Made by a program: the position numbers and the translations under genes. Of a stretch of DNA of 64,000 bases, positions 3,906-13,420 are shown one piece after another. Positions within the stretch are counted from its first letter, which is position 1. Every line of letters starts with the position of its first letter. The stretch spans positions 1 through 64,000 of the forward strand of contig JARGNR010000010.1 in assembly GCA_029212405.1 (NCBI GenBank), written 5' to 3'. A model generated the notes under the pieces. That model worked only from the letters and a program-made list of their open reading frames with translations. It had not been told where the DNA came from and made no database searches. The stretch is from Saprospiraceae bacterium. GTDB taxonomy: Bacteria; Bacteroidota; Bacteroidia; Chitinophagales; Saprospiraceae.

Positions 3906-5201
3906 TTATTTGCCTGCTCCTGGATCTCTTTCCAAAAATTCATCGTACAATAATGTATGTCGACTTTCCATCGGCACCTTATATCCATTAATGAATAAGT
4001 GCTCGATTTGAGTTTTTGTCTCAAATGGGTCTCCATTTGAAATAAAGATATTCGCTATTTTACCTTTCTCCAAGCTACCTAACTGATCTGAAACACCCAA
4101 TATTTCTGCTGGAATTATAGTGATCGATTTTAAGGCCTCTTCTACACCCATTCCATATGCTGCTGCAAACCCCGCATTAAAAGGTAAATTTCTTACATTT
4201 TCCGTTTCATTGGATCGTATGGCAACTTTAACCCCTGCTTTATGCATAATAGAAGGGTTTTTATAAGAGACATCGTAACTAGCAGATGATCTTCCTGGTA
4301 CAGACAACACAGGTCCAGTAATTACAGGAATTCCAGATTTTGCCAATTCTTTTGCAACTCTATATCCTTCAGATACTCCTGTAAAGATTACATCAAGTTT
4401 ATTCTTTTCTACCCATTTGATTGCTGCTTTGATATCATTATCTTTATTCACTTCAATCATTAATTTTGCTTCACCTCGTACAATTGGCATCAATGCTTCC
4501 ATTTGAGGATTAAAGTCATCCATTTTTTGATTGGTTGCTTTTGCAGCTGAATCAATTGCAGCATATTGCCTTGCCTTATCCCAGATATCATTCATCTTCT
4601 TCATCGCTTTTTCACCGTCCTTTTTGATATCCTCAGGCTTTCTTCGATCCCATCTTCCTCTTTTACCCGTAGAAGGGAAATTCATTTGAACAGCCTTAAA
4701 CCCAGCAAACATTTGATTCGGAGTATATCCGTGCAAATTGATCAATGCTGCAGTTCCAGGAAACAACCCACCTGCCGTTTTGGAAATAACAGAAGTAACT
4801 CCATTCGTTCTTGTTACAGGAATAGCCACTGAATTGGGGTTTACAGCTGTCAATGCTTGCATATGAGGTGTAAAATCTCCTAATTCTCGATAATCCTGAG
4901 TCAAAGAAATAGACCCGACTTCTGACAATCCTAGATTGGTGCCACCATCGATAAACCCTGGATAGACATGCATACCAGTACACATTATGGTAGTAGACCC
5001 TGCGTCCATTTGAGTGATTGTTCCAATCTCAGCAATCTTCCCATCTTTAATTAATAAATCTCCTTGAATAGTGCCATTTGTCACCGTATGGAGGGTAGCA
5101 TCTTTAAGTAAAAATGTACCTTTTTGAGATTTGTTGACCATTTGTGCTTCAGCAGAAAAGCCAAAAACGATGAAGATCAACAGTATATATAATTTATTCA
5201 T
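3906..5201 (-). CDS. Secreted amidohydrolase-like protein, metal site degenerate
   Basis: A 431-residue exported protein with signal peptide (MNKLYILLIFIVFGFSAEAQ) and an amidohydrolase/imidazolonepropionase-like fold. Family framework segments are present: MHVYPGFIDGGTNLG near residue 95, GVKVAIRSNE, and the C-terminal LGSLEKGKIANIFISNGDPF. The HxH metal motif that should follow PGFID is replaced by GGT, and the later His ligands are not evident, so the metal site is probably lost. It is the last gene of a three-gene unit with two paralogues; 28 bases separate it from the next. It may be a non-catalytic partner or bind ligand only. Confidence 0.85.
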   Translation of the reverse strand: MNKLYILLIFIVFGFSAEAQMVNKSQKGTFLLKDATLHTVTNGTIQGDLLIKDGKIAEIGTITQMDAGSTTIMCTGMHVYPGFIDGGTNLGLSEVGSISLTQDYRELGDFTPHMQALTAVNPNSVAIPVTRTNGVTSVISKTAGGLFPGTAALINLHGYTPNQMFAGFKAVQMNFPSTGKRGRWDRRKPEDIKKDGEKAMKKMNDIWDKARQYAAIDSAAKATNQKMDDFNPQMEALMPIVRGEAKLMIEVNKDNDIKAAIKWVEKNKLDVIFTGVSEGYRVAKELAKSGIPVITGPVLSVPGRSSASYDVSYKNPSIMHKAGVKVAIRSNETENVRNLPFNAGFAAAYGMGVEEALKSITIIPAEILGVSDQLGSLEKGKIANIFISNGDPFETKTQIEHLFINGYKVPMESRHTLLYDEFLERDPGAGK

Positions 5202-5229
5202 TTTATTTAATTTTATTTGACCAGATCAA

Positions 5230-6597
5230 TTAATGCTTGTGTGTTTCTCCTAGAAATAATTCAGAAAAAACATCTTGCATACATCTATCTTCATCTTCAC
5301 TATCTAATTCAATAAAGCTATCTTGAAATTTTTCTTCTGGATCAATATCAATCCGCATATCGTCTGGATCATTTTCAATGTCAAATTTCACCACACCGTC
5401 AACTATTGTCATTTGCGGTATAGCATAAATTGAAAGTGGATGAGCGTTAAAAATCGCAATATCTCCATCTTTCCCTACTTCTAAAGACCCAACTCTATCG
5501 TCGATACCTAACTGTATAGCAGGATTAATGGTGATGAGTTTCAATGCTTCGTTGTCAGATAGATCTCCGTATCGTTGTGTTTTGGCAGCTTCATGATATA
5601 AATGACGAATCAATTCACCAGAATCTGAATTAATAGAAGTCACTACCCCATTTCTAGAAAGTATAGCTGCATTGTATGCAGTACTGTAGTAAACTTCAAA
5701 TTTATACGCCCACCAATCTGAAAATACAGAGGCTCCAGCTCCAAACTGTGCCAATTCTGGTGCAACTTTAAATCCTTCATTTACGTGTTGAAAACAAATT
5801 TTCTTTACTCCAAAATCAGAAAGAACATTCATCAACATTAAAATTTCATCTGCTCTATAAGAGTGACAATGAATAATAATTTCACCGTTTAAGATATCCT
5901 TCATAGTTTCCATCCGTCTACTATAAACTGGCGGAGTTTTTGTTTTTCCAGAATTAAAATCTGCCCAATCTTTCTTATACATCTCTGCTTCAGCAAATGC
6001 TTTTCTAAATACTTGCTCCACTCCCATACGTGTGTTTGGAGTAATATTTCTTCCTTCACCGTGCACCCGCATTGGGTTTTCTCCAAGTGCAAATTTAATA
6101 GTTCTCGGTGCTCCTTGCATTCTTAATTCATCTGGGTCCCAAGTACCGTATCTATGCTTAATCGTTTCACACTCTCCACCCACAGCATTGGCTGATCCAT
6201 GCATCGCATGAGAAATGGTTACTCCACCTGCCAGTGCTCTATAAATAGCAACATCCTGAGGGTCTAACCCATCCCCAACAAAGACTTCTGATGTCACTGG
6301 ATTTGTTGCTTCATTTACCGTCTCTAATGCAATATGAGAATGTGCATCAATAATACCAGGCATAACAAATTTCCCTGTAGCATCAATAGTTTTAGCATTT
6401 TCAGGTGCTTTAATTCCTTTTCCTATTTTCTTTATTTTCCCATTGGTAACAAGAACATCTGTATTCTCTTTGACCCCATCAGAAATGGTAATCACTGTCC
6501 CGTTTTTAATGAGAATGTTGCCCATTTCTTGTGCTTGACTTGAAAAAGCTAAGGCAAATACACAAAGGACTAATATATATTTATTCATTTTTTTCAT
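5230..6597 (-). CDS. Secreted amidohydrolase, apparently catalytic
   Basis: A 455-residue exported metal-dependent hydrolase (signal MKKMNKYILVLCVFALAFSSQAQ). Unlike its two neighbours it keeps the canonical ligands: HSH in GIIDAHSHIALE, a His pair in IIHCHSY, a His in CFQHVNEG and Asp in INSDSGEL. The C-terminal framework LGIDDRVGSLEVGKDGDIAIF is intact. The substrate is unknown; similar proteins are annotated as imidazolonepropionase-like or peptidase-like. The C terminus is a Met/Asp/Glu-rich tail ending in ETHKH. A start nine bases downstream (ATG at 6586-6588) is also possible. It is the middle gene of the unit, 28 bases after its upstream partner. Confidence 0.9.
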   Translation of the reverse strand: MKKMNKYILVLCVFALAFSSQAQEMGNILIKNGTVITISDGVKENTDVLVTNGKIKKIGKGIKAPENAKTIDATGKFVMPGIIDAHSHIALETVNEATNPVTSEVFVGDGLDPQDVAIYRALAGGVTISHAMHGSANAVGGECETIKHRYGTWDPDELRMQGAPRTIKFALGENPMRVHGEGRNITPNTRMGVEQVFRKAFAEAEMYKKDWADFNSGKTKTPPVYSRRMETMKDILNGEIIIHCHSYRADEILMLMNVLSDFGVKKICFQHVNEGFKVAPELAQFGAGASVFSDWWAYKFEVYYSTAYNAAILSRNGVVTSINSDSGELIRHLYHEAAKTQRYGDLSDNEALKLITINPAIQLGIDDRVGSLEVGKDGDIAIFNAHPLSIYAIPQMTIVDGVVKFDIENDPDDMRIDIDPEEKFQDSFIELDSEDEDRCMQDVFSELFLGETHKH

Positions 6598-6625
6598 TTT
6601 AATGTTTGAAATTAAGTGGTCTCAG

Positions 6626-8386
6626 TTACTTTGGACCATCCTTTAATGAGCCTGTCATTGGAAATGAACCAAATTCAGCAACTGAAACAGATCCTTCAAA
6701 ATCTGTACCTTCCAATGTAACATCTATGGAATAAGGTATTCCCTCCACATTGATATCAAACGTTAAATTGTTCCCGTCCAAATCTATATTTGTAGCGTCA
6801 ACAAAATCTTCAGGTTCATCTGCACTATTGATTCTAATCGTTAAATTATCATCACTTCCATCAACAATCATGATACCTGTTTGAGTATCGTTGGGTACTT
6901 CTACTGTATAATTCCATGTACCTATAACTGAAACATCATCCCCCTTGCTTCCCTTTTTCTTTTTCTTCTTTTCCTTAAATTCTTTTAGTCCACCATCGTT
7001 AAAGACATACTTAATTTTTGATTCTTTGTCAAAAAAGGACTTGTCTGTAATAAAGATATTAGCAATTTTTCCTTGTTCCACCGTTCCTGCAACATTCGAG
7101 ATTCCGAGTAAAGAAGCTGGATTTGTAGTTAATGCTGCCAACGCGCCTTTTTCTGACAGTCCCCCTTCTACCATTCTCAATAGATTTGGCTTTATTTCTT
7201 TTGTTTTTGTATCTAAAGACGACAAGCTAAATGCAATCCCTTTCTTTTCAAATAACGCGGCTTGCCCTACGTATTCATCGTGAGATTTCTTTTTCTTTGC
7301 CTTCATCATTGCTAGAGCGGGATCCTCTTCTTTTTTCTTTTTCTTCTTTTTCTTCTCTTTCTTTTTCTCGCCTTCTTCTTTCTCTCCACTCTTCTCTTCT
7401 TTTTCTGCGTCTTCTTTATCTTCCTCCTTTTCTTCTTCTGGATCTTCAATTTTCTCTGGTAAATGCATTGATAAAACAACTGAATGTTTACCAGCTACAA
7501 TTTCATCCATTAAAGGCCATCCTTGACGTACGCCAGTCAGCACCATTTTAAAACCAAGCTCATTATTTAAAATCAATGCACGATTTACATCCCTAACTTT
7601 TGCTGTATAAAAGAATACAGGCATTTGTTTATTCACAACAGGAAACATTGCCCCCAGTTCTGCAGAATGATTTGGCTTGGTTAATCCTTTAGGTTGCATG
7701 TTGTACGACTTCAGGTAGGTATTACTATACTCAGCATTTTTATACAAATCTCTAAACTGCGACATCACTCCAATCGTCGTTGCAGGAAACATCCCTCTGG
7801 CAGGTTTAAATTGAGTAAATAATGAAGTGTTTTCCTTAACTAATGTTTCATCTGTTGCTCCACTTCCTGTGGTTAGAATACTTCCTTGCCCGGGTAACAT
7901 TCTTCCTCTCGGAACTACATGAACAAACCCGAAACCCAAATCTCTCAATTCGGCCATAGATTTATCCAACTTTTCTCCAATTGCCTCACGAACTGTTTTT
8001 TGAGGAGTGATTCCCGCTAATTTTTTTGGCGGATTTCCTGGATTTTTAACTCTTGGACGATCTTTTTTTTCTTCTTCCTTAATACCTGCATGAGAACATG
8101 CATCGATAAATCCCGCATATACATACATGGAATCTGCATCAATGACTTTGGCATCAAAAGGAATTTCGACATTCGGCCCAACGGATTGAATGAGTCCGTC
8201 TTTAATTAATACTGAAGTATTGGGTAAAACCATACCCGGTTTTTGAACGACAAACGCATTCTTGATATAATACGTATTGGTTACTTCTTTGGCATCGTTG
8301 CTATTTTGTGCAAATCCTATATTTACAAAGAACATGCACAAAAAAAGACCTAGCAATTCCAGCTTAAAATGTTTGGATTTGGTCAT
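6626..8386 (-). CDS. Secreted amidohydrolase-like protein with charged insert and C-terminal beta domain
   Basis: A 586-residue exported protein, first gene of the three-gene unit. Residues 1-26 are a signal peptide. The amidohydrolase fold follows (YVYAGFIDACSHAGI, where the HxH position reads CSH, so one ligand is missing). A segment of about 45 residues around 310-355 is almost all Glu, Lys and Asp, ending in a run of eight Lys. Framework segments LGISNVAGTVEQGKIANIFI follow. A second Lys-rich run (EKKKKKKGSKGDD) leads to a ~100-residue C-terminal beta-rich domain ending GSFPMTGSLKDGPK. Loss of a metal ligand suggests altered or no hydrolysis. Confidence 0.85.
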   Translation of the reverse strand: MTKSKHFKLELLGLFLCMFFVNIGFAQNSNDAKEVTNTYYIKNAFVVQKPGMVLPNTSVLIKDGLIQSVGPNVEIPFDAKVIDADSMYVYAGFIDACSHAGIKEEEKKDRPRVKNPGNPPKKLAGITPQKTVREAIGEKLDKSMAELRDLGFGFVHVVPRGRMLPGQGSILTTGSGATDETLVKENTSLFTQFKPARGMFPATTIGVMSQFRDLYKNAEYSNTYLKSYNMQPKGLTKPNHSAELGAMFPVVNKQMPVFFYTAKVRDVNRALILNNELGFKMVLTGVRQGWPLMDEIVAGKHSVVLSMHLPEKIEDPEEEKEEDKEDAEKEEKSGEKEEGEKKKEKKKKKKKKEEDPALAMMKAKKKKSHDEYVGQAALFEKKGIAFSLSSLDTKTKEIKPNLLRMVEGGLSEKGALAALTTNPASLLGISNVAGTVEQGKIANIFITDKSFFDKESKIKYVFNDGGLKEFKEKKKKKKGSKGDDVSVIGTWNYTVEVPNDTQTGIMIVDGSDDNLTIRINSADEPEDFVDATNIDLDGNNLTFDINVEGIPYSIDVTLEGTDFEGSVSVAEFGSFPMTGSLKDGPK

Positions 8387-8573: not shown

Positions 8574-10118
8574 TTAATTAATTTTGTAGACGACACCAGC
8601 ATTTATACCAATGGCAAAATACTTTTGGCTCACAGTGTTGGCTGCATTACTAAAGTCGTCAGGAAAATATGTAAATCTAGGTGCTAGATAGAAATCTCCT
8701 AAACTACCAAAATTCCTTCCTATCATTAAGCCACCAAAATAATTAACACCGATTCTATTCTTGAACAATTTATTTAGTGAAAGAGGGGTATAGTCCTTTT
8801 TAGTTGTCAGTAAATTCCCTGTTGCACGAGTCATGAAGTTAATTCTAACACCTGCTTCAATCCCTATATCAAAACCACCTAAATATGTGGAATACCCCAA
8901 TGATACTGGAAAATCAAAAAGATGAATATAGTGATGTTGTCTGTTACTACCTTTGTACGTAGTTTCTGTGATTATATCTCCATAAATGTGAGTAATCGTA
9001 TCTCCATTCCCGGAAATTGTAGTAGAAATTATTCCAATAGTCGTATCCTGTTGCGTAAACTCATACTCCAGGTCCATTCGTTCTGAAATTCTAGAATAGG
9101 AAACTCCACCTTTGATATAAAAAGGTACATTATCTCTCACAAGCATTCCATACAACCCAATCTCCAATCCTTCCAATGATGATTCATAAGCCAATCGTGG
9201 AGTATACGAGTCTGGAGCTTCAAGTGATTTTACTCCAAGTGTCTTTCTTGGTGAAAAAACACCTACTTCAGGTATAAGGGCCATATGCCATTCTGCATTA
9301 TTAAAAGAAGGACAATTGATTCTCATTCTTGAAAACAAATTACCATCCATCTCATTTTCTATCAGATTTTCTGAAGAAGTATTCAGCTCCGACATGGAAA
9401 TAATATCTCTTTGTAAAACTTCTGGACTACTTACATTCGAATTTCTATTTTCTATTAATTCACTGGTAGAATTTGATTTGGAAGCATCAATTTCATCCTG
9501 AGATAAAAATATATACGAATTGCTTAAATCCTCTTTTGCAGTGGATGGCTTTGAATTTTCTGAGTTGACCTCTCTGTTAAAATCTCTTGTTTGAGCTTGT
9601 TTTGAACTTGAATTTAAATTTTTATTTAAAGTTGATGAATTATCTTCTTGATTGCTATTTTCGTAGTTAACATTATTGTTTTCTGAATTGGAACTGGATC
9701 TGGAACTTAAATTTGAACTTGAACTTGAACTTGAACTTGAACTTGAATTTCCTGAACTCAAATTATTTAGATTATCTGAATTAGAAATAAGCGTTTCTCC
9801 TAAACTCGTTTCCTTCTTTTCAGTACGACTGTTGGTATACTCTGTCGCATTGATAGAATTTTTGCCACTAATTTGAGGTTGAATTAATGCATCAGAATGT
9901 GTGTTGTTTGATTTTGACTCATCCATTAAATTCCATGCCATTGTCAAAGACGCTAAAAGCAATATTGGAATGAACAACCAGTACACAAAATTGCCCTTAC
10001 TTGACTTTTTAGGTGTATCCCCTAAATCAAGTGCAGACAACAACTCATCCATTTGGACCGTCTCTTGTGCGCCCTCCAATTCGCTTTTGATATGTTTTTC
10101 AAAATCTAAATACTTCAT
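8574..10118 (-). CDS. Probable dual membrane-spanning anti-sigma factor (TM helix + outer-membrane barrel)
   Basis: A 514-residue protein directly after an ECF sigma gene (10-base gap). Residues 1-43 are a soluble, acidic tail with no signal peptide. Residues 45-66 (YWLFIPILLLASLTMAWNLM) are one hydrophobic helix. Residues ~67-275 are a Ser/Asn/Glu-rich linker with a run of Ser. Residues ~280-514 resemble a PorT-like eight-stranded barrel, with alternating strands and an ending typical of outer-membrane proteins (FAIGINAGVVYKIN). A cytoplasmic tail plus an inner-membrane helix plus an outer-membrane barrel fits the Dma anti-sigma type known from Bacteroides. Alternatively it is a misassigned OMP, but the N terminus has no cleavable signal. 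Confidence 0.7.
   Translation of the reverse strand: MKYLDFEKHIKSELEGAQETVQMDELLSALDLGDTPKKSSKGNFVYWLFIPILLLASLTMAWNLMDESKSNNTHSDALIQPQISGKNSINATEYTNSRTEKKETSLGETLISNSDNLNNLSSGNSSSSSSSSSSSNLSSRSSSNSENNNVNYENSNQEDNSSTLNKNLNSSSKQAQTRDFNREVNSENSKPSTAKEDLSNSYIFLSQDEIDASKSNSTSELIENRNSNVSSPEVLQRDIISMSELNTSSENLIENEMDGNLFSRMRINCPSFNNAEWHMALIPEVGVFSPRKTLGVKSLEAPDSYTPRLAYESSLEGLEIGLYGMLVRDNVPFYIKGGVSYSRISERMDLEYEFTQQDTTIGIISTTISGNGDTITHIYGDIITETTYKGSNRQHHYIHLFDFPVSLGYSTYLGGFDIGIEAGVRINFMTRATGNLLTTKKDYTPLSLNKLFKNRIGVNYFGGLMIGRNFGSLGDFYLAPRFTYFPDDFSNAANTVSQKYFAIGINAGVVYKIN
9715..9744. repeat. Hexanucleotide tandem repeat (GAACTT)n inside the anti-sigma linker
   Basis: Five perfect copies of GAACTT, with degenerate copies on both sides from about 9691 to 9750. 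On the coding strand they encode the poly-Ser part of the linker. Copy-number change would alter linker length without shifting the frame. Confidence 0.9.
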
Positions 10119-10128
10119 ATCTTATGTT

Positions 10129-10695
10129 TTATATCAGATGTAAATGATTTACTCTCTGATTTTCTTTCTCCTGTCTTTGTCTGATTATCTCAATCACTCT
10201 TGCTCTTGCTCTACTTAGCGAAGCTCTAGAGGTACCTTCTGAGATACCCAATATTTCGCTAATTTCTTTATGATTGTATCCTTCAATCACAGACATATTA
10301 AAAACAACAAACAAACTTCTAGGAAGCTCATTCAATAATCCTAAAATTTCTTCCTTCCCTAAAGTACTATACACTTGAGGGATTTCACAATGCTGTACAC
10401 TATCATGCAGTACATCAGGCTCATGGTACTTCTGAAAATGCTTTTTTTGAAATGTAATTGAACAATTCACAGCAATTCTCTTTAGCCAGCCTTCAAAAGA
10501 TCCCTTCCCAGAATAACTATTAATATACTTGAATATATTAATAAATGCCTCTTGCAAAGCATCATTTGCCGATTCATGATCCTTAGTATACCTCCTACAA
10601 ATAGACAACAGTACTGGAGCATACGTTCGCACCAATACTTCTTGGCAATTTTTTTTGCCTGATTTACATCCTTCTATGATTTTATCTATCTCCAA
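10129..10695 (-). CDS. ECF-type RNA polymerase sigma factor
   Basis: A 188-residue sigma-70 family factor with only regions 2 and 4. Region 2 spans roughly residues 22-95 (YAPVLLSICRRYTKDHESAND, then DALQEAFINIFKYINSYSGK and FEGWLKRIAVN). Region 4 spans 118-175 (LNELPRSLFVVFNMSVIEGY, then HKEISEILGISEGTSRASLSRA), with the helix-turn-helix around EISEILGISEGT. It directs RNA polymerase to a small regulon. It lies 10 bases upstream of a candidate membrane-spanning anti-sigma gene and 26 bases downstream of a surface lipoprotein gene, so the three probably form one signalling unit, likely autoregulated as such factors usually are. Confidence 0.93.
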   Translation of the reverse strand: MEIDKIIEGCKSGKKNCQEVLVRTYAPVLLSICRRYTKDHESANDALQEAFINIFKYINSYSGKGSFEGWLKRIAVNCSITFQKKHFQKYHEPDVLHDSVQHCEIPQVYSTLGKEEILGLLNELPRSLFVVFNMSVIEGYNHKEISEILGISEGTSRASLSRARARVIEIIRQRQEKENQRVNHLHLI

Positions 10696-10721: not shown

Positions 10722-13298
10722 TTAATCTAATACAACTAGTGAATGCGCAATATAGCATGCATTATTTTCATCTAAAACTACTACATAGTACTCTCCTTTA
10801 GTCAATTCTCCTGCTTCATTTATGGCTGTCACATCGTTCATATTTTCCGCTGATAACACTCTTGCTTCACCTGGAGTACAACTTTCGCACACCTCACCAT
10901 CATCAATCGTATACTCAATTTTACCATCTGCACAAACATCACAGGATACAGAAGTAGTAGAAATGTTCTTCAATCCTTCAAAATGAGGTAATTCGACAGA
11001 TTCTGTTGTAAAGCAATTGCTAAATATTGGATTCTCCGACCCCAAGTCAAAACGATATCCCGTTTCTATTATTTCAAGATTCAGCTTACCTTGAGATAAA
11101 TTTACTGGAATTTTATCTTCTGAATCTGAAGGAATATAAAAGTAATCAAAACCAGAAGGAAGATTAGAAAATGTAATTACGCCACCTTCACAAGAAAGAC
11201 TGATATCTATATCTGGCAATGATCCAGCTTTACTAATAGTAAGAGATGTACTTCTCATACAATTGTTTGCATCCGTCATGGTCAGGTTATAAACTCCTGG
11301 ATCGTATACAAACAACTGATTCCCCAATGCTTCTCCTGCATCCCATGTATACGTATAAGGTTTATATCCATCCAATTCTGCTATCGTAATGATGGATAAA
11401 TCACAAAAATCCTCTTTTGATGACTGAATGGGAGTAGTCACATCATATACTTCTATTGATTCAGAAACTTCACAATCACCACTATCAATTATTTTTATGT
11501 CATAACTACCTGGTATCAAGTCTTCGATCTTCTCATTTTGAGAGAAAAATCCTGCAGGGCCTGTCCATTCAAAACTAAACGGTGCTTTTCCTCCTTCAAA
11601 ACTCATTTCAATGAAACCACTATTTTTAAAACATTCATCATTGGAAGAATAAATATTATCTATTCTCAATCTCTTGTAGACCTCTACCTGATCACAAAAA
11701 GTATACGTACACTCAGTAACAATATCGGTAACCTCAACACAAACTTCAGATCCGGACATCAAGTCATTTAAATAAATATCTGTGCTTCCATTCTGCCATA
11801 TATAGGAATATTCACCCGAACCGCCTTCTATATCTACTGAAACTCTGTTATAATCCCCATCTATGCAATAATCCTCTTTTTCATATACAAATTCTGAGGA
11901 TGCCGTGCATTCTACTTGACAAATTTCAATCTCAAGCGATTCGGAAAAATCTGCGCTTAGTTCATAAATATCACTGGACAGTGACAATTTATCATCAAAA
12001 ACTACAAGGGTGAAAGGATTAGATGAGTTACAACTTATTTCTCCTAAGTTGATACTAAAAGATCCATTTGCATTAGGAAAAAATATATTTCTAATTCCAC
12101 CGCTATTCGTCATTATTGTGGCTGTATTTATCCCCTCGCCATTGCATTCAATCTTACCAGAAATATAGTCTTCATCAATATCTATGACTATATCCCCTAT
12201 GGTGCCAATATCTTCAAATGGACCAATAAACAATTCCTTTAATACGGTACCACAAACTGGATGCAAGACCTCAAGCCTTAATTCTTCTCCAAGCGGTATT
12301 TTGCCACAGAAAAATCCATCTTGATCCGTTATGCCAATTCGTGAAGGCAAACCATTATTATCAATTTGAACCGTATAGTTTTTAGCTGGAAGTTCGTTTG
12401 AAAATTTCACTTTCCCACACACTTGTGACACTCCATAGTCATAGCCAATATTCCAAAATCCTAATTTTTTTATAGAAACCGAAAAACTTGAACCGACAAA
12501 GCTTGCTAGTGATGTTTCTAACCACAACCCTTCAACTTCGTCAAAACTCCAAGCCATGATATCTCCATCAATTTTATTTATCAATTCCTCACTTATGGGA
12601 ATCGTCAACACCGCAGACTTATCAGATCTAATTCTTAACGGTTGATTATCAAATCCTCTCAATTCAATGGCTACCATTCCAAATGTTGACAAAACCCTAT
12701 GTCTTCCTTCTACATCTATACCAATAAGCCCACCTGCCATTTTGCTTCCTAAATGAGGGTCATCAGCATGAATGGTATAGGCCGTAGCGGATACCGTTCC
12801 ATCATAAGAAGAACCATTCGATCTCATGAGAGCAGAAGAAGGGAAACTAATCGTACCTCCACCTGAAATAGTTAATACTCCGCCCGTTGCGGCATCAAAT
12901 GTCAGATCTTGTGATTCTCTTAAAAGTTCAATTTTGGAAGTCCCCTTGCCATTTGTATTAGGGTACACTAAATCTGAACCTAATAAATATCCTGACTTTT
13001 CAGCTTTAACAAAAGTCCCTTGTGGATCCAATTTAACATCTTCAAATGAAAAAAAACCAAATGCATTTGTGGTAGTCGTACTGCTATAGATCGACACATC
13101 TACATTGGTTACTGGATTATTTTCAGCATCATAGATGTACCCAATCAAATCTCCTTCAATTTCGTTGAATTCTAATGGTACGGTTATTTGACTATTTGTT
13201 TCTGTTTCTGGATTTATATCTCCTACATCATTGTGGCAAGAGACAAAAAAAGCCACAGCAAACAATAAAGTAAGTTGGAAAGTGTATTTTTTTAACAT
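10722..13298 (-). CDS. Surface lipoprotein with carboxypeptidase-like, ZU5-like and SprB-like domains
   Basis: An 858-residue lipoprotein. I start it at the ATG at 13296-13298, which gives a clean lipoprotein signal (MLKKYTFQLTLLFAVAFFVSC) with Cys21; four codons upstream there is another ATG that would add MHVF. Residues ~50-125 form a carboxypeptidase-regulatory-like fold (GYIYDAENNPVTNVDVSIYS). Residues ~140-290 resemble a ZU5-like region (GGTISFPSSALMRSNG). A second regulatory-like fold follows. Residues ~475-730 contain three PKD/SprB-like repeats with GGSGEYSYIW, GGKAPFSFEW and DGYKPYTYTW starts. It lies just upstream of the ECF sigma gene on the same strand and could be the sensed surface component. 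Confidence 0.85.
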   Translation of the reverse strand: MLKKYTFQLTLLFAVAFFVSCHNDVGDINPETETNSQITVPLEFNEIEGDLIGYIYDAENNPVTNVDVSIYSSTTTTNAFGFFSFEDVKLDPQGTFVKAEKSGYLLGSDLVYPNTNGKGTSKIELLRESQDLTFDAATGGVLTISGGGTISFPSSALMRSNGSSYDGTVSATAYTIHADDPHLGSKMAGGLIGIDVEGRHRVLSTFGMVAIELRGFDNQPLRIRSDKSAVLTIPISEELINKIDGDIMAWSFDEVEGLWLETSLASFVGSSFSVSIKKLGFWNIGYDYGVSQVCGKVKFSNELPAKNYTVQIDNNGLPSRIGITDQDGFFCGKIPLGEELRLEVLHPVCGTVLKELFIGPFEDIGTIGDIVIDIDEDYISGKIECNGEGINTATIMTNSGGIRNIFFPNANGSFSINLGEISCNSSNPFTLVVFDDKLSLSSDIYELSADFSESLEIEICQVECTASSEFVYEKEDYCIDGDYNRVSVDIEGGSGEYSYIWQNGSTDIYLNDLMSGSEVCVEVTDIVTECTYTFCDQVEVYKRLRIDNIYSSNDECFKNSGFIEMSFEGGKAPFSFEWTGPAGFFSQNEKIEDLIPGSYDIKIIDSGDCEVSESIEVYDVTTPIQSSKEDFCDLSIITIAELDGYKPYTYTWDAGEALGNQLFVYDPGVYNLTMTDANNCMRSTSLTISKAGSLPDIDISLSCEGGVITFSNLPSGFDYFYIPSDSEDKIPVNLSQGKLNLEIIETGYRFDLGSENPIFSNCFTTESVELPHFEGLKNISTTSVSCDVCADGKIEYTIDDGEVCESCTPGEARVLSAENMNDVTAINEAGELTKGEYYVVVLDENNACYIAHSLVVLD

Positions 13299-13316
13299 AA
13301 ATACGTGCATTCTTGA

Positions 13317-13333: not shown

Positions 13334-13420
13334 AAATTTACGAATTAAATACCTTTAAAAAGTATTTATAGTATATAGAGTCAAGAATGTGTAAAAATGC
13401 TGCTACAACAGTAGAAAAAA

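Follow-up and report, generated by a model that had tools for sequence, protein, structure and literature searches.

Does a bacterium of the Saprospiraceae keep one of its ECF sigma factors in check with a single protein that links the cytoplasm with the outer membrane? The question arises from a locus on contig JARGNR010000010.1 (assembly GCA_029212405.1), of which the first 64,000 nucleotides were analysed (the window). An earlier note, made from the letters of this DNA, had proposed that a 514-residue protein whose gene adjoins that of an ECF sigma factor is an anti-sigma factor of the Dma type. Published Dma proteins consist of an N-terminal sigma-binding domain, one membrane helix, a disordered tether and a C-terminal beta-barrel, and their cognate sigma factors belong to ECF21; Bacteroides thetaiotaomicron has the pairs Dma1/Das1 and Dma2/Das2 and three Dma proteins in all (PMC13088901). 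Deletion of dma2 induces the genes of its operon, where its partners are DUF4943 and DUF4858 proteins (PMC13088901). In the EcfO/Reo system of Bacteroides fragilis and Phocaeicola vulgatus the regulon includes NigD surface lipoproteins (PMC13114119, PMC9308784). Loss of Reo activates that regulon, and outer-membrane stress is the proposed signal in Dma/Reo-type systems (PMC13088901, PMC13114119, PMC9308784). In FecR/FpvR-type signalling, an outer-membrane protein, an inner-membrane anti-sigma factor and an ECF sigma factor together relay a surface signal (PMC9249621, PMC11637429). A search for Saprospira ECF sigma factors with anti-sigma factors found no paper in the literature collection covered.

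Gene order and the ECF sigma factor

Transcription on the minus strand runs from a predicted lipoprotein gene (10722..13310 (-), 862 aa, lipobox FVSC with Cys25) over 26 bp to the ECF sigma factor gene (10129..10695 (-), 188 aa, TTG start; Pfam, structure match, orthologs) and, after 10 bp, to the dma-like gene (8574..10118 (-), 514 aa; ORF, model, orthologs and paralogs), whose product, the anti-sigma candidate, is predicted to extend across both membranes. The 10-base gap between sigma and dma-like genes is as the earlier note had read it. What that note overlooked is a third partner, the lipoprotein gene that opens the operon, as well as 16 paralogous pairs in the same genome and a promoter-like motif.

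The sigma protein has Sigma70_r2 and r4_2 domains above the Pfam cut-offs, with E. coli sigmaE as a structural match of region 2 (Z 15.0); assignment to a family yielded only general ECF matches. A TTG or GTG start at the same position, without a nearby ATG, is found in 13 of 15 sigma orthologs, and the Dma gene starts with ATG. We do not claim this start as a special control of stoichiometry, since a missing nearby ATG is frequent among the genome's other ECF genes too.

After the dma-like gene, at 3906-8386 (-), lie three successive genes that, judged by eye, resemble related secreted amidohydrolases. One of them, of 586 aa, carries a long Glu/Lys-rich insert, and its orthologs come after the Dma gene in same-genus genomes.

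Tail, helix and tether of the Dma-like protein

The sigma factor and the dma-like protein were modelled with AF2 as one read-through chain with an artificial 4-residue linker and 23 aligned rows. Because this linker joins the two proteins, the model can be used for fold and disorder, not for the interface. Its tail alignment comprised three joined rows only, and mixed rows holding sigma alone or Dma alone misplaced the tails.

Residues 1-43 (9990..10118 (-)) make up an N-terminal tail that, from its sequence and its relatives, is predicted to be cytoplasmic and is the putative sigma-binding part. A single membrane helix follows at residues about 44-66 (9921..9989 (-); hydropathy, model and relatives). 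Hydropathy places its start at residue 44 and the AF2 model spans 45-69, in line with the one hydrophobic helix (45-66) recognized before. Residues about 67-271 (9306..9920 (-)) form a disordered, Ser/Asn-rich, predicted periplasmic tether. Here pLDDT is below 50 for residues ~64-271, which gives about 205 disordered residues, close to the ~210-residue linker that had been described. Same-genus orthologs share the sequence of tail, helix and barrel, whereas of the tether the composition is kept but little of the sequence.

The description of the tail as acidic fits the window (9 D/E versus 6 K/R) but fails as a family feature, since tails averaged over 60 relatives have 7.8 acidic and 8.9 basic residues. 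Common to the tails of these relatives is a K/R patch ahead of the helix. Their tails are about 43 residues long, the mean helix start is residue 46, and K/R is commoner in the 12 residues before the helix than in the 12 after it in 59/60 cases. Because K/R is richer on the N-terminal side of the helix, the tail is placed in the cytoplasm, and the predicted topology is that of Dma proteins, with one helix and a short cytoplasmic N-terminal part.

These data also bear on whether this could be a normal outer-membrane protein whose signal sequence is unusually long and is cut by signal peptidase after the helix, with the free tail-helix piece acting on the sigma factor or on nothing. Small residues after the hydrophobic stretch in some orthologs would suit such a cut, but a 43-residue tail far exceeds the usual n-region and is preserved in length, in K/R placement and in sequence. 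Tail, tether and barrel are also fused in 60 relatives, and the published relatives span both membranes. The conservation of tail, helix and barrel, with the kept tail length and K/R placement, therefore argues against a cleaved signal peptide, which the earlier note had named as a finding that would speak against its reading; we regard this alternative as highly improbable.

Whether the tail contacts the sigma factor was approached in several ways. In the joined model the tail helices have pLDDT of only about 40-60. A mirror-tree test of tail against sigma gave a weak signal (partial r 0.12) and was dropped as proof of their pairing, this value being too weak. In a Pfam search, no curated family covering the N-terminal tail was found. 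Most other family members have a W-containing tail motif, in which the window's ortholog clade has L, I or F in place of W. Two relatives have unusual tails: in L101 (2094-3644) the tail bears the motif twice (SPMPSHLWEGIDAIL, SPLPAHLWEGIDAML), and in L041 (2370-3875) the tail is about double the usual length. Judging from these two tails, the putative sigma-binding module could be duplicable.

The C-terminal barrel

Residues about 275-514 (8577..9296 (-)) are modelled as a confident all-beta domain (pLDDT 80-97), predicted from the AF2 model and structure matches to be an 8-stranded OmpA-type outer-membrane barrel. The closest solved structure is a designed barrel (6x9z, Z 17.7, rmsd 1.8), followed by OprF (4rlc, Z 16.6), OmpA (9fzc, Z 16.3), NspA (1p4t, Z 16.1) and OmpW (2f1v, Z 14.5). 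With Pfam, the window barrel gives only a sub-threshold match to OMP_b-brl (E 0.32), and no match up to E 1 to PF13568 (OMP_b-brl_2, the family of PorT-like barrels). The barrel fold proposed in the earlier note thus stands, but its PorT-like character does not, as there is no PF13568 match and the best matches are OmpA-type and 8-stranded. A C-terminal part that did not fold as a barrel would likewise have counted against the Dma-type reading; the model folds as one, with OmpA-type matches at Z 14-17. As modelled, the protein ends in an outer-membrane beta-barrel, as Dma proteins do.

Sigma-Dma pairs in relatives and in the window's genome

When 119 related genomes were searched with the 514-aa protein, 44 had matches, mainly via the barrel, and 40 loci were fetched. 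An ECF sigma gene lies directly upstream in the same orientation in 39 of them, and the sigma and dma genes overlap by 4 bp at 23 of these 39 linked loci. The one exception, L091, has stop codons within the match. With an ECF sigma gene directly upstream in 39/40 fetched relatives, the sigma-Dma pairing is more than chance.

The pairing recurs within the window's own genome (6.8 Mb, 222 contigs). Out of 42 ECF sigma matches, 17 (the window's among them) have directly after them a gene whose product comprises a tail, a helix, a tether and a barrel-like C-terminal part. The barrels of these paralogs were judged by C-terminal length and composition, and some have weak, sub-threshold OMP_b-brl and OMP_b-brl_2 matches. 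At two of the 17 loci (L036 on C153 and L039 on C125) the Dma-like gene is split into two frames, of 258+169 and 241+213 aa; these are candidate pseudogenes or assembly errors. The search for the same sigma/TM-linker-barrel pair in other genomes, which the earlier note had suggested as a check, therefore came out in favour of the pair, both in the relatives and at 16 further loci of the own genome. Together with all four parts of the architecture and the ECF sigma gene upstream here, these counts support the Dma-type reading, which we consider largely right: the 514-aa protein has the Dma/Reo architecture, and its membership rests on architecture and context.

The lipoprotein as operon partner

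Conservation of the whole operon was counted at 12 named loci of Saprospiraceae/Chitinophagales that hold orthologs of the window's Dma protein. The order lipoprotein-sigma-Dma is kept at all 12. The window's lipoprotein family stands beside the sigma gene at 27/39 barrel-relative loci versus 0/15 non-Dma ECF loci of the own genome. In that genome the N-terminal half of the lipoprotein family has five matches, each adjoining a sigma-Dma pair, and about 90 other matches to the family are SprB repeats of large proteins. When the search was begun from the lipoprotein, a sigma gene adjoined 20 of 32 Saprospiraceae genes; in other orders of the class, none of 20 loci with lipoprotein relatives had a sigma neighbour. 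The association of lipoprotein, sigma factor and Dma protein is thus real and confined to Saprospiraceae, because the relatives of the lipoprotein in other orders lack the sigma neighbour.

The idea that the lipoprotein is a universal Dma partner was rejected on the same 20 loci. Some lipobox-bearing gene from outside the window's lipoprotein family is present upstream at at least 10 of the 17 own loci and, by the same regular expression, at essentially none of the control loci. At three loci of other orders (L220, L227 and L232) the lipoprotein relatives form tandem arrays of 2-4 genes without a sigma neighbour.

Domains and motifs of the lipoprotein

The N-terminal half of the lipoprotein was modelled with pLDDT 87.7 and pTM 0.85. 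Residues about 51-132 (12915..13160 (-); Pfam and model) match transthyretin/CarboxypepD_reg-like domains (SusC NTE 9hfj, Z 10.8). Residues about 131-294 (12429..12920 (-)) are termed ZU5-like on a fold match only, to ankyrin ZU5 (3ud2, Z 10.0 over 130 residues, rmsd 3.5), and two further domains of this kind come after them in the model. A SprB repeat lies in the C-terminal half (11553..11645 (-); Pfam). For the family, Pfam gives CarboxypepD_reg, the FAM171 N-terminal domain and SprB, and no ZU5 match among those listed. The FAM171 match, a weak one to the N-terminal domain of these animal membrane proteins at residues about 208-271, is seen in 12 of 13 family members and exceeds the Pfam cut-off in L249.

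The ZU5-like domain ends in H-F-[S/T] in all 29 relatives from other orders and in 26/32 from Saprospiraceae. The animal protein PIDD cuts itself right after each of its ZU5 domains at HF/S (PMC3210808), and ZU5 surface proteins have also been predicted in bacteria (PMC3482391). The fold match and the HF[S/T] of most relatives liken the lipoprotein to autoproteolytic surface proteins of the ZU5 superfamily, such as PIDD, although its family lacks a Pfam ZU5 match, the window's motif is lost and cleavage is putative. We propose this ZU5-like lipoprotein family of Bacteroidota as a candidate for a bacterial autocleavage domain. The window's own copy reads K282-L283-G284 at this position (12459..12467 (-)), and same-genus orthologs read EIG or SFG; because these replace H-F-[S/T], the window lipoprotein and those orthologs are predicted not to cut. 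Among the lipoprotein genes of L219-L269 the motif is nearly invariant, and where it is lost the S/T position is mostly taken by Gly.

The export signal that takes Bacteroidota lipoproteins to the surface (LES) is C-X-K-(D/E)2 after the lipid-bearing Cys (PMC5080379). Most orthologs read C-H/R-K-D there, close to this signal, and the window lipoprotein reads C-H-N-D-V, with N in place of K.

A promoter-like motif ahead of the lipoprotein gene

A predicted ECF-type promoter, GCAGCATTTT-N13-CTCT, occupies 13377..13403 (-) and starts 93 bp before the ATG of the lipoprotein gene. In most of the 12 orthologs, G[C/G]AGC[G/A]TTTT, then 11-14 bases and CTCT or a similar sequence stand upstream of this gene. 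The core AGC[G/A]TTT, a motif picked after inspection, is present in 8/12 orthologs, where 2000 resampled sets gave a mean of 0.8 and a maximum of 5. Among 20 further linked operons, an independent set, a de novo count put GCAGCG first in enrichment of all 6-mers (7/20 versus 0.17 expected). Elsewhere in the genome the full pattern occurs only once, and its reversed control also once.

Proposed mechanism

From the conserved gene order, the predicted topology and barrel fold, the sigma domains, the lipobox and the promoter-like motif, we read the locus, with high probability, as a three-gene envelope signalling operon of lipoprotein, ECF sigma factor and Dma-type anti-sigma factor that is probably autoregulated. 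In the mechanism that we propose, the short cytoplasmic tail of the Dma protein would hold the sigma factor at the inner membrane. The C-terminal barrel would anchor the chain in the outer membrane, with the disordered tether linking the tail side to it. A change at the outer membrane or the cell surface might then be relayed along the tether, whether through pulling, misassembly of the barrel or proteolysis, and the freed sigma factor would transcribe its own operon from 13377-13403, giving more lipoprotein. The mechanism is proposed by analogy, as loss of the anti-sigma factor switches on the regulon in Dma1/Das1, Dma2/Das2 and EcfO/Reo. We infer tail-sigma binding, outer-membrane insertion of the barrel, display of the lipoprotein at the cell surface, autoregulation, and the signal with its relay.

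Some anti-sigma factors of cell-surface signalling are known to have pro-sigma activity. The Dma protein might accordingly, once processed, assist the sigma factor as a positive co-factor with pro-sigma activity of the FecR type, and not only inhibit it; a tail freed by proteolysis could remain bound. In Bacteroides and Phocaeicola, however, the regulon is switched on when Dma1, Dma2 or Reo is lost, and we consider a co-factor role very unlikely here, favouring inhibition by the tail.

The place of the lipoprotein in this inhibitory circuit can be read in two ways. It could act as a sensor at the cell surface, seated on the barrel and gating the Dma protein, and not mainly be a product of the regulon. 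Its tight operon linkage in Saprospiraceae would suit a sensor, as would the ZU5-like domain and HF[S/T] of most relatives, which could cut or rearrange on a stimulus. But the promoter-like motif ahead of its gene would suit an output just as well, the published systems have NigD lipoproteins among the outputs of the regulon, several Dma pairs lack a member of the window's lipoprotein family, and the window's motif is degenerate. A sensor role therefore appears doubtful, if more plausible than the two alternatives above, and we favour the lipoprotein as an output.

Relation to known systems

The operon is of a known kind, with two variations, its lipoprotein-first order and a 17-fold expansion. 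Its likeness to Dma1/Das1 and Dma2/Das2 is one of architecture and context: tail, one helix, disordered tether, barrel, adjacent sigma gene and further operon genes are common to both. The Dma2 operon of B. thetaiotaomicron has DUF4943 and DUF4858 partners, whereas the window has a transthyretin/ZU5-like lipoprotein family, and the 17 pairs of the window's genome compare with three Dma proteins in B. thetaiotaomicron (PMC13088901). With EcfO/Reo the locus shares an anti-sigma factor predicted to run from cytoplasm to surface, its gene downstream of sigma, and a link to lipoproteins, which in EcfO/Reo are the NigD proteins of the surface and in the window a probable surface lipoprotein. In contrast, the window lipoprotein belongs to a different family (transthyretin-like, ZU5-like, SprB) and is encoded by the first gene of the operon. 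FecR/FpvR-type systems resemble the proposed mechanism in relaying a surface signal from the outer membrane to an ECF sigma factor, but use a separate TonB-dependent receptor, while in the window an 8-stranded barrel and the anti-sigma factor are one chain.

A bolder reading would be that Saprospiraceae evolved and multiplied a three-part surface-sensing module, in which a surface lipoprotein with a ZU5-like domain, HF[S/T]-autocleaving in most members, is coupled to a single-chain anti-sigma factor that joins an outer-membrane barrel to a cytoplasmic sigma factor, so that cleavage or binding at the surface frees the sigma factor directly, with about 17 parallel Dma channels per cell. We hold this to be unlikely.

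Dma-type anti-sigma factors have only recently been described, in gut Bacteroides, and the window locus extends their architecture to Saprospiraceae. The window's genome has 17 such pairs in parallel. The operon partner conserved here, probably a surface lipoprotein, offers a direct handle on what such systems sense or make, and HF[S/T], which most of its relatives carry, provides a testable link to the ZU5-type autocleavage of animal proteins.
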